From positions 1-33,003 of IMG/VR virus record IMGVR_UViG_3300042307_000448: a stretch of DNA of 33,003 nucleotides; one strand, given 5' to 3'. The notes below the pieces were generated by a model. That model was not told the DNA's origin, searched no databases, and saw only the letters and a list, made by a program, of their open reading frames with translations. The first letter of the stretch is position 1; every line of letters begins with the position of its first letter. This document shows positions 1,188 to 9,037 of this stretch, piece after piece. The stretch is from a virus. Position numbers and translations under genes: made by a program.

Positions 1188-1742
1188 ATAGATAGTTATA
1201 ATATAAAGAGGTTATGGCCATACCTGATGATGACAGTTAATAGAGTTGTCTATTATTGTAAAAGCGTGGTTCATCATATTATAACTATCTATTTTTATTT
1301 AATGCAAGATATATATATTATATGACGAGAAGATATCTTTATGATAACAATAGCTCACAACATAGGTAAAATAATAAAGCCTACATTACTGTTGCAATGC
1401 AGCGAGCAGTCATATAATATATTATTTAATGCATCATTCTATCTTCCCAAGGGATAGCAATTGTAATACAGATAGAGTAAAACAAACAGGACTGTGTATA
1501 TACACCGACTTAGAAGCCAATTAGTAATGATTGGTGGAGTATCCTGCTCTATTGAAATGAGATAACATCAAACAAGTATTACAATTGAATGCAGAGGGGT
1601 ATAGGTTTCGGGAGATTATAGTATAAAATACCAATAGCTATTAATGCATGTGCACAATGTATTAGTATTTAGGGACGCTGAATGTCTTTGGTTGATCAAT
1701 GTTATATTCTAGGAATGTAATACATCTGGATATACTATAATC
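1188..1742 (+). ncRNA. Candidate large multi-domain structured RNA (about 555 nt)
   Basis: The gap 1183-1792 has no gene but contains four consecutive, non-nested, perfect closing helices: 17 bp (1188-1204 with 1276-1292), 14 bp (1313-1326 with 1409-1422), 12 bp (1458-1469 with 1576-1587) and 12 bp (1614-1625 with 1731-1742). Inner helices are also visible. Domain 1 has GATGA 1226-1230 with TCATC 1271-1275, and AATAG 1239-1243 with CTATT 1250-1254. Domain 3 has ATAGAG 1472-1477 with CTCTAT 1547-1552, CAGGA 1487-1491 with TCCTG 1542-1546, and hairpins at 1494-1505 and 1517-1534. Linkers between domains share AATGCA. Size and layout recall large ornate phage RNAs such as ROOL and GOLLD, but I see no basis to assign it to either class. 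Strand is inferred from neighbours. Confidence 0.6.
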
Positions 1743-7091: not shown

Positions 7092-9037
7092 ACGTTCTAA
7101 TTTATGATATTGAGACAATGCAAGAGTTGTTTCTAATTAACGTACTTGATCCAGAATTACATGAACAACATGAGTTTATGGTCAGTAGGTGGCACAACAA
7201 TCTTGACGCATTTGTTAAATTCATAGAATCTCATCCTAATCATTATTGGGTGGGATATAATAATTTAAGATTTGACAGTCAAGTGGTAGAATGGGTTATT
7301 CGTAACTATGAACAATGGCACCAGTTAGATGGACTAGAGGTGTGTGCTAAAATTGCACAGAAGGCTCAAGATGTTATACATGATGCTAATTATGATGTAT
7401 TTGCTGAATATAGAGAGAGCGATCTATCTATGAAGCAGATCGATTTGTTCAAGATTAATCATTACGACAATAAGAATCGTATGGTGAGTTTGAAAAGACT
7501 TGAGTTTGAGATGGATTTAGAGAACATCGAAGAGATGCCTATTCATCATACTAAAACTAACATGTCTAAAGAAGAAATAGATATCACTAGAGAATATTGT
7601 CGTAATGATGTATACGCAACCCATGAGTTTTATAAAGTTACAATAGGTAATACCAGTCATCCATTATATAAAAGTAACAATCAAATACAATTAAGACTAG
7701 ACATACAAGAAGAGTTTAAGATTCCGTGTCTTAATTATTCTGATAGTAAGATTGGTGATGAGATGATTAAGAAGTATTATTGTGAAGAGGAACGCATATC
7801 ATATGATAATCTACCTAAGAAAGGATTCTTTCGTAAAGAGATTAAAGTGAAAAATTGTATAGCTGATTATGTAAAGTTTACACAACCACAATTACAAGAG
7901 TTTCTCAAACGAATGAATAAATTGGTATTACAACTTAATGATGATTTTAAAGAAAGCATAGATTTTTATGGCAACACTTATACGTTTGCTAAAGGCGGCT
8001 TACACACAGAGAACAAGCCAGAGGTATTTGAAGCTGATGATCAGTTTGAAATCATTGATTGGGATGTGTCTAGTTATTATCCTGCTATCATTATCAATAA
8101 TGGCAGGTATCCTCAACATCTTGGGAAAAAGTTTCTTACTGGCTATAAGCGTATGTTTGAGAGGCGTCTTGAACTTAAGCCACAGGCTAAAAAGGATAAA
8201 CGCATTGCAGGGATTGTTGGGGCTCTTAAGCTTGCTGTCAATTCTGTATATGGTAAGTCTTCTGATATACAGTCGTGGATCTATGATAGACAACTCACTA
8301 TGTTTACTACTATTACTGGAGAGCTTAGCTTGCTTATGCTTATTGAAGCGTATGAACTAGCAGGTATACATGTCATCTCAGCTAATACAGATGGTGTCAC
8401 AATTAGAATAGAAAAGACACATCTTGATAAAATGCATGAGATTAATGCATGGTGGTGTGAATTAACTCAGTATGAACTAGAACGTACAGATTACAGTAAG
8501 ATTATATTCTCAACAGTTAATGATTATCTAGCAGTTAAGACCAATGGAGAAGTTAAGAAGAAAGGTGATTTCCTTACAGATTTTGAATTACATAAAAACA
8601 AATCTGCTAGAGTGGTGCCTATTGCTCTTGAGCGTTATTATTGCAATGGTATTCCTGTTGCTGATAGCATCAGTAATCATAGTAACATCTTTGATTTTTG
8701 TCTCAGACAGAAGGCTAGCAGAGACTTTCATTATGAAGGTAAGTTCAATGGTCAGACTACTGTATATAATAAACTAATTAGATATTATGTATCTAACACT
8801 GGTGAGAAGCTGTTAAAAGTGAAGAACCCAGAATGTCTATCCAACGCTGCACCAATATCACAAGTGGAAGCAGGTGAGTGGTTAATGACAGTATGTAATA
8901 AGTTATCTAAGGATCATCCTCTAGATAATATTAATCATTCTTATTACATAGAGAAAGCAGAAAGAATTATTAACAAGATTAATTACAATGGTAAAAGAAG
9001 ACCAGTAATAATCGCAAACCAACTAAATTTATTTTAA
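7088..9037 (+). CDS. Family B DNA polymerase with 3'-5' exonuclease, 649 aa
   Basis: Replicative DNA polymerase. The exonuclease domain shows motif I DIE (D7, E9), motif II NNLRFD (N58/59, D63) and motif III YCRND (Y170, D174). A GGLHTE segment (303-308) precedes the polymerase core. The core has motif A DVSSYYP (D326), motif B KLAVNSVYG (K381, N385, Y388, G389) and motif C NTDG, with the metal-binding Asp at D435 and Asn at 433 in place of the first Asp of DTD. About 650 residues is short for a cellular family B enzyme but normal for phage ones. I chose ATG 7088 because it forms an ATGA overlap with the upstream gene and leaves the usual short lead before exo I; the in-frame ATG 51 bases upstream adds an unlikely extension. 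Confidence 0.93.
   Translation: MNVLIYDIETMQELFLINVLDPELHEQHEFMVSRWHNNLDAFVKFIESHPNHYWVGYNNLRFDSQVVEWVIRNYEQWHQLDGLEVCAKIAQKAQDVIHDANYDVFAEYRESDLSMKQIDLFKINHYDNKNRMVSLKRLEFEMDLENIEEMPIHHTKTNMSKEEIDITREYCRNDVYATHEFYKVTIGNTSHPLYKSNNQIQLRLDIQEEFKIPCLNYSDSKIGDEMIKKYYCEEERISYDNLPKKGFFRKEIKVKNCIADYVKFTQPQLQEFLKRMNKLVLQLNDDFKESIDFYGNTYTFAKGGLHTENKPEVFEADDQFEIIDWDVSSYYPAIIINNGRYPQHLGKKFLTGYKRMFERRLELKPQAKKDKRIAGIVGALKLAVNSVYGKSSDIQSWIYDRQLTMFTTITGELSLLMLIEAYELAGIHVISANTDGVTIRIEKTHLDKMHEINAWWCELTQYELERTDYSKIIFSTVNDYLAVKTNGEVKKKGDFLTDFELHKNKSARVVPIALERYYCNGIPVADSISNHSNIFDFCLRQKASRDFHYEGKFNGQTTVYNKLIRYYVSNTGEKLLKVKNPECLSNAAPISQVEAGEWLMTVCNKLSKDHPLDNINHSYYIEKAERIINKINYNGKRRPVIIANQLNLF

Follow-up and report, generated by a model that had tools for sequence, protein, structure and literature searches.

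The window analyzed here, one linear virus sequence of 33,003 bases from IMG/VR, contains near one end a gap with four long inverted repeats in a row, which raises the question of what kind of RNA this region might encode. A preliminary description of the DNA had proposed either a single large RNA or an array of related ones over positions 1188 to 1742. We found no open reading frame (ORF) of at least 50 amino acids between positions 1182 and 1793, in agreement with the gene-free gap described before; the gap is flanked by ORFs of 71 amino acids (967 to 1182) and 125 amino acids (1793 to 2170). The perfect inverted repeats in 1183 to 1755 measured 18 bp with a spacing of 71 nt (given as 17 bp in the preliminary description), 14 bp with 82 nt, 12 bp with 106 nt, and 12 bp with 105 nt. 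In 300 dinucleotide-preserving shuffles of 1183 to 1792, repeats of at least 12 bp with a spacing of 50 to 120 nt occurred on average 0.007 times and never more than once, compared to the four observed, so that the series of four long helices is, as had been claimed, very unlikely to arise by chance. Folding of the whole 610-nt region yielded a z score of -7.1, which bears out that it is structured, with individual scores of -5.4 for unit 1, -3.5 for unit 2 (1307 to 1424), -1.8 for the interior of helix 3 (1469 to 1576), and -2.4 for unit 4 (1601 to 1750).

Relatives of the gap were reached through the neighboring proteins, which pointed to L010, a contig showing no difference in the first 3 kb, and to three diverged loci (L005, L007, and L008). 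Comparison of the gap in the diverged loci revealed a common stretch (...UCCCAAGGGAURGC...) and, further on, UGAAUGCAGAGGGGAU, the two halves being separated by helix 3. The conserved core thus lies at 1427 to 1457 and 1588 to 1598, outside the helices singled out before. Pattern scans of viral contigs for both halves returned 15, then 30, and then at least 120 stretches, and at least 117 distinct units could be extracted from approximately 110 loci on uncultured phage contigs, among the matches listed. Extraction demanded GAGGG and at least three of four P2 pairs, and TTAA, parts of L2, and the L4 string had been set by the scan patterns, which is why the invariance of these letters is no independent evidence. 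Where the pattern left GAGGG free, it was present in 65 of 80 scan matches. A scan in which G or C was allowed at both L2/L4 places gave 65 complete units, all of them CC/GG, while the 3' half was missing from the eight GC/GG, GC/GC, or CC/GC matches, which provide an inner negative control. A blastn search against named phages detected no related DNA. The units are mostly intergenic, lying in an ORF in only 3 of the 117 cases from the matches listed, and no common flanking gene emerged, as no protein cluster spanned more than 20 of the approximately 110 loci of these matches.

The unit in the window, which we call a twister-like ribozyme for reasons given below, spans positions 1427 to 1598 on the plus strand, the strand of the phage genes, and comprises P2, L2, P4, L4, P5, and L1; it reads AUUUAAUGCAUC...CUUCCCAAGGGAUAG...GAAUGCAGAGGGG. 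It starts with UAA, the 5' strand of L1 (1427 to 1429), located as in canonical twisters and containing the predicted cut between U1427 and A1428. The 5' strand of P2 (UGCAU, 1430 to 1434) pairs with AUGCA at 1589 to 1593. In L2, the cytosine at 1435, proposed to form a lone T2 pair with G1451, is invariant, in part because the pattern fixed it, and shows no covariation. P4 is formed by CUAUC (1439 to 1443) and GAUAG (1453 to 1457) and carries the L4 loop U-UCCCAAGG (1444 to 1452), of which UCCCAAGG recurred in 116 of 117 units from the matches listed. The arms of P5 (1458 to 1469 and 1576 to 1587), which correspond to helix 3 of the preliminary description, are perfectly complementary over 12 bp and enclose a variable domain (1470 to 1575) for which no relative was found. 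The unit ends with the 3' strand of L1, GAGGG (1594 to 1598), the same as in canonical twisters, whose GGG (1596 to 1598) is complementary to CCC in L4 (1446 to 1448) and would form pseudoknot T1. P1 comprises only 1 bp in the window copy. Across the units, the order is UAA, P2 of 5 bp, C-A-Y, P4 of 5 bp, U-UCCCAAGG, P5, A, P2', and GAGGG, where P5 starts with C-A and mostly finishes with U-G. The conserved element therefore amounts to approximately 60 nt plus the P5 domain.

Stem conservation was high among the 117 units from the matches listed: 116 had an intact P2 and 113 a perfect P4, with P4 occurring as more than 15 different complementary pairs and P2 as UGCA/UGCA, UGCG/CGCA, UGUA/UACA, or AGUA/UACU. 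On alignment A6, P2 was 100% paired and four of its five pairs varied on both sides. Its fifth pair was C-G in 93 units, U-A in 24, and mismatched in none of the 117. All five P4 pairs covaried, as did eight of the ten counted P5 pairs. On alignment A4, 19 of 29 pairs varied on both sides, values as high as those observed were reached by 0 of 500 shuffles, and every covariation measure was above that of each of the 500 shuffles and of each slid register. The covariation score, the paired cells, and the both-side-changed cells behaved likewise on alignment A6, but there the pair counts and pair-type counts were not clearly higher than in the shuffles. The homologous phages thus share a conserved architecture with clear covariation. 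P1 reached at least 4 bp in 46 of the 117 units from the matches listed, compared to 11 by chance (maximum, 20 in 500 shuffles of the downstream sides). We rejected P1 as an obligatory stem. P1 has been reported to be dispensable for twister cleavage (PMC5408937). The strands of the putative T1, CCC of L4 and GGG of L1, were complementary in every unit; being invariant, T1 has no covariation support. The first P1 pair was U-G in 20 of 44 cases, and the G-U pairs fit the gene-sense strand only.

The core of the unit was recognized as that of a twister (PDB 4OJI), and this assignment was then tested. Bacterial genomes scanned for a twister-like string yielded eight loci, two of which were twister-P1 above the Rfam cut-off, while two more scored as twisters at E values of 1.4e-11 and 6e-7. 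An Rfam-certified twister (L034), which reads UUUUAAUGCAGCC...GGUCCCAAGCCCGGAUAAAUGCAGAGGG, has UAA, P2, L4, and GAGGG as in the phage units. When 60 kb were searched with model R1, whose training set comprised only phage cores from which P5 had been removed, the four bacterial twister sites came out at the top (E values of 3.7e-5, 3.2e-3, 0.02, and 0.04), and three decoy loci that had the twister loop string but no twister were passed over; as these loci had been preselected for loop and GAGGG, the result tests the remaining architecture and does not amount to a blind search of genomes. At the scale of whole bacterial genomes, model R2 lacked the power to identify canonical twisters reliably. 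With twisters of type P1 (RF03160; PDB 4OJI and 4RGE), the phage units share the UAA next to P2, placed as in the canonical L034 and L036, the P4 loop UCCCAAG, GAGGG after P2', the T1 complementarity, an L2 C opposite an L4 G, and the A preceding P2'. These results establish that the phage units are related to canonical twisters.

There are, however, clear differences. The canonical L4 is UCCCAAGC, whereas the phage L4 is U-UCCCAAGG, with an extra U at the P4 apex. In place of the L2 G of canonical twisters, the phage units have a Y engaged in P2 pairing, and in place of the L4 C they have G. Published twisters form T2 between the L2 GC and two L4 nucleotides (PMC5408937); this canonical GC x GC T2 is absent in the phage units, where L2 is YC and L4 is GG. 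In our model, a fifth P2 pair and a single T2 pair took the place of a T2 of two pairs (UC x GG), given the covariation of the L2 Y with an R across P2. Thus, T2 is reduced from two pairs to one at most (C1435-G1451), and P2 is one pair longer. Furthermore, all phage units have P5 (12 to 195 nt) and none has P3, whereas P5 is present in 1% and P3 in 78% of annotated twisters (PMC6154101). Neither RF03160 nor RF02684 matched at an E value of up to 10 in 12 records or in the compact units, and at gathering and permissive thresholds Rfam returned nothing informative but a misaligned twister-P1 match on L031, with 11.8 bits compared to a cut-off of 67.2 bits. Because of the differing T2, P2, and P5 and of this Rfam miss, we refer to a twister-like variant rather than to a canonical twister. 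Twister-sister (RF02681), reported to resemble twister in the P4 loop (PMC6154101), gave no match at an E value of up to 10 in the 12 records either, and by its description it does not have the T1 pseudoknot, unlike the phage units with their T1 complementarity. We thus consider it highly probable that the element at 1427 to 1598 is a divergent twister-type self-cleaving ribozyme that would cut phage transcripts, helix 3 looking like its optional P5 arm.

We then compared the domains carried by the units. Among the 105 P5 interiors of at least 30 nt in the units from the matches listed, 84 were unique and the remainder fell into clusters of two or three, located in otherwise different units. 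One structured domain (GAGAUAC...GUAUCUC, with inner hairpins) occurred in P5 of the otherwise different units L057, L088, and L151, and P5 interiors were similar in the pairs L024/L152, L021/L113, L041/L160, and L083/L149. In addition, a conserved module (GURGAUAURAAGACUUCUUA...UAAGAUGURAAACYAC plus a second helix), which looks like an aptamer-type internal loop, was found at the P4 apex at six loci: L008 (3563 to 3702), L011 (6935 to 7060), L041 (at 6833), L106 (ending near 8455), and, on the minus strand, L046 and L168. It starts right after the 5' strand of P4. In L008, L011, L046, and L106 the whole unit was readable, and P4 varied on both sides across the insertion (CUAUC/GAUAG and CUCAC/GUGAG). 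Synthetic aptamers on twister P1 and P5 have been used to control gene expression (PMC5052635). The exchangeable P5 domains and the P4-apex module could be sensors that make the units natural allosteric twister-type ribozymes tuning transcript cutting, although we regard this as a tentative and rather unlikely proposal.

Concerning the surroundings, a hairpin lies just 5' of the predicted cut in 51% of the units from the matches listed, compared to 24% at 100 nt further up. Where the window has units 1 and 2, several relatives have a GGGAGA/UCUCCC hairpin with a U run directly next to the predicted site. Hatchet ribozymes (RF02678), likewise a self-cleaving class but unrelated to the unit by the Rfam model, were searched for in 16 loci and then in 49 contigs. 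They scored above the Rfam cut-off on four of the 49 contigs, 0.9 to 1.6 kb upstream of the units and on the same strand (L088, 191 to 325; L051, 8518 to 8654 on the minus strand; L083, 6387 to 6553; and the contig of L097, 2447 to 2609); none was found in the window. The four hatchets may descend from one ancestral locus and count as one or few events. Their proximity agrees with the published tendency of self-cleaving ribozymes to cluster with one another and in the vicinity of phage genes (PMC10085705).

Further elements were noted on these contigs. A tRNA gene starts some tens of bases after the twister-like unit of L025 (5482 to 5581, minus strand), but tRNAs were near very few units, so that this is not a general rule. 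A tmRNA gene above the Rfam cut-off is present on the phage contig of L088 (8424 to 8820). Upstream of the 71-amino-acid ORF, the window contains a second conserved noncoding element (765 to 905), approximately 65 nt of which are framed by AAACUAAUGCUAUUUUA and UAAAAUAGCAUUAGUUU. It is well conserved, with little covariation, in 15 related loci, which include L005, L007, L008, L012, L018, L021, L024, L025, L027, L029, and L031, and it may be an RNA or DNA control site. The string AACCTTTTAAAYAATA... precedes start codons at 946 to 967 and 1772 to 1795 of the window and in relatives. No Shine-Dalgarno sequence is apparent there, and the string is likely a leader or promoter common to this group of phages. 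The primase of the window is approximately 30% identical to the primases of crAss-like and Flavobacterium phages, which makes a host among the Bacteroidota likely.

The remaining helices belong to other units. Unit 1 (1183 to 1297) consists of a long AU-rich hairpin, helix 1, followed by UUUUUAUUUAAUGCA. Unit 2 (1313 to 1422), the 14-bp hairpin of helix 2, lies directly 5' of the ribozyme, and unit 4, or module M (1601 to 1755), contains helix 4; all are on the plus strand. No homologues were found for unit 1, unit 2, or the P5 interior of the window. Unit 4 is kept beside a unit in L031 (86% identity over 154 nt), and its core is found within a P5 of L021 (68% identity); judged by these matches, helix 4 is a separate accessory module. 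The repeat TTATTTAATGCA is present in two identical copies of 12 nt on the plus strand, at 1295 to 1306 and at 1422 to 1433, the second of which spans the predicted cut. It flanks unit 2, which looks as though a duplication or recombination event at the ribozyme start had introduced this unit. A hammerhead ribozyme, considered because of CUGAUGA in unit 1, was dropped since no GAAA partner was seen by eye. Unit 2, which follows UAAUGCA, was rejected as a second twister, as it lacks a UCCCAAG loop and would need a P2 that crosses the 14-bp helix.

These data bear directly on the preliminary interpretation. In favor of a single large RNA or an array, four long helices stand in series far above chance, and the fold of the region (z = -7.1) is strong. 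Yet wide conservation is limited to helix 3 and its flanks, whereas no relatives of helices 1 and 2 were detected and both are absent from L005, L007, and L008, a short GGGAGA/UCUCCC-type hairpin replacing them in L005 and L008. The units have no sequence in common except the 12-nt repeat and one short near-repeat, which speaks against an array. The four helices are thus neither a single large RNA nor copies of one another, and we see hardly any chance for the earlier reading, although its expectation of conserved helices held true for helix 3, but not for helices 1 and 2. ROOL and GOLLD RNAs are phage-borne, noncoding, structured RNAs, and the preliminary description saw no sign that the region belongs to them. 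Indeed, no Rfam family, these two as well as OLE and HEARO included, matched the window at the gathering threshold, and ROOL, GOLLD, OLE, and HEARO were not among the weak matches in 680 to 1800; the conserved element, with its approximately 60 nt plus P5 domain, also differs from ROOL and GOLLD.

Two other explanations accept the unit itself. It might be a twister-derived fold that does not cut, a leader or scaffold in which P2, P4, and T1 present P5 to a protein, a ribosome, or an RNase. The reduced T2 would suit such a role, as would the preference of the P5 stem for CAGUUGUAAU/AUUACAACUG in many units, which goes beyond pairing, as a protein site might require. Nevertheless, the active-site residues (the UA step, GAGGG, and CCCA) are kept in essentially all units, and hatchet ribozymes are found close by, so that we judge a noncutting scaffold to be improbable. 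Alternatively, the unit could be a mobile or recombining DNA or RNA element with conserved ends as recombination sites and the interior as cargo, the hairpins acting as DNA. Mobility is compatible with the tandem copies of L021 and L031, the occurrence of several units in 7 of the 110 loci from the matches listed, changing neighbors, exchanged interiors, and the 12-nt direct repeat flanking unit 2 of the window. Against this, the G-U pairs, including the first P1 pair, are sensible on the gene-sense strand only, and the short inner stems covary and the core is identical with that of twister, all of which leaves this explanation with a very low probability, although mobility could form an extra layer over a ribozyme.

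For the self-cleaving ribozyme, which we favor, the preserved active site suggests both cleavage and its exact site, and we propose the following course. P2 and P4 would form during transcription, and CCCA of L4 would dock on GAGGG, creating T1. Attack by the 2'-OH would then cut between U1427 and A1428. The upstream message would end in a 2',3'-cyclic phosphate that closely follows a hairpin, and the downstream message would begin with a 5'-OH on AAUGCA, followed by the folded core, the P5 domain, and module 4. In this way, a polycistronic phage transcript would be cut into pieces with structured, hairpin-guarded ends, while the P5 arm would bear an exchangeable domain. A role in the processing of polycistronic transcripts is thus likely.

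If this is true, a large phage-borne branch would be added to one of the few classes of self-cutting RNA, and the variant exposes a blind spot of the current Rfam twister models. The reduced T2 and the longer P2 probe what the twister fold truly requires. Because the P5 and P4-apex domains are swappable, regulated natural ribozymes become a concrete hypothesis, and the intergenic units, often located behind a hairpin, would offer a tractable route to the natural function of twister ribozymes.
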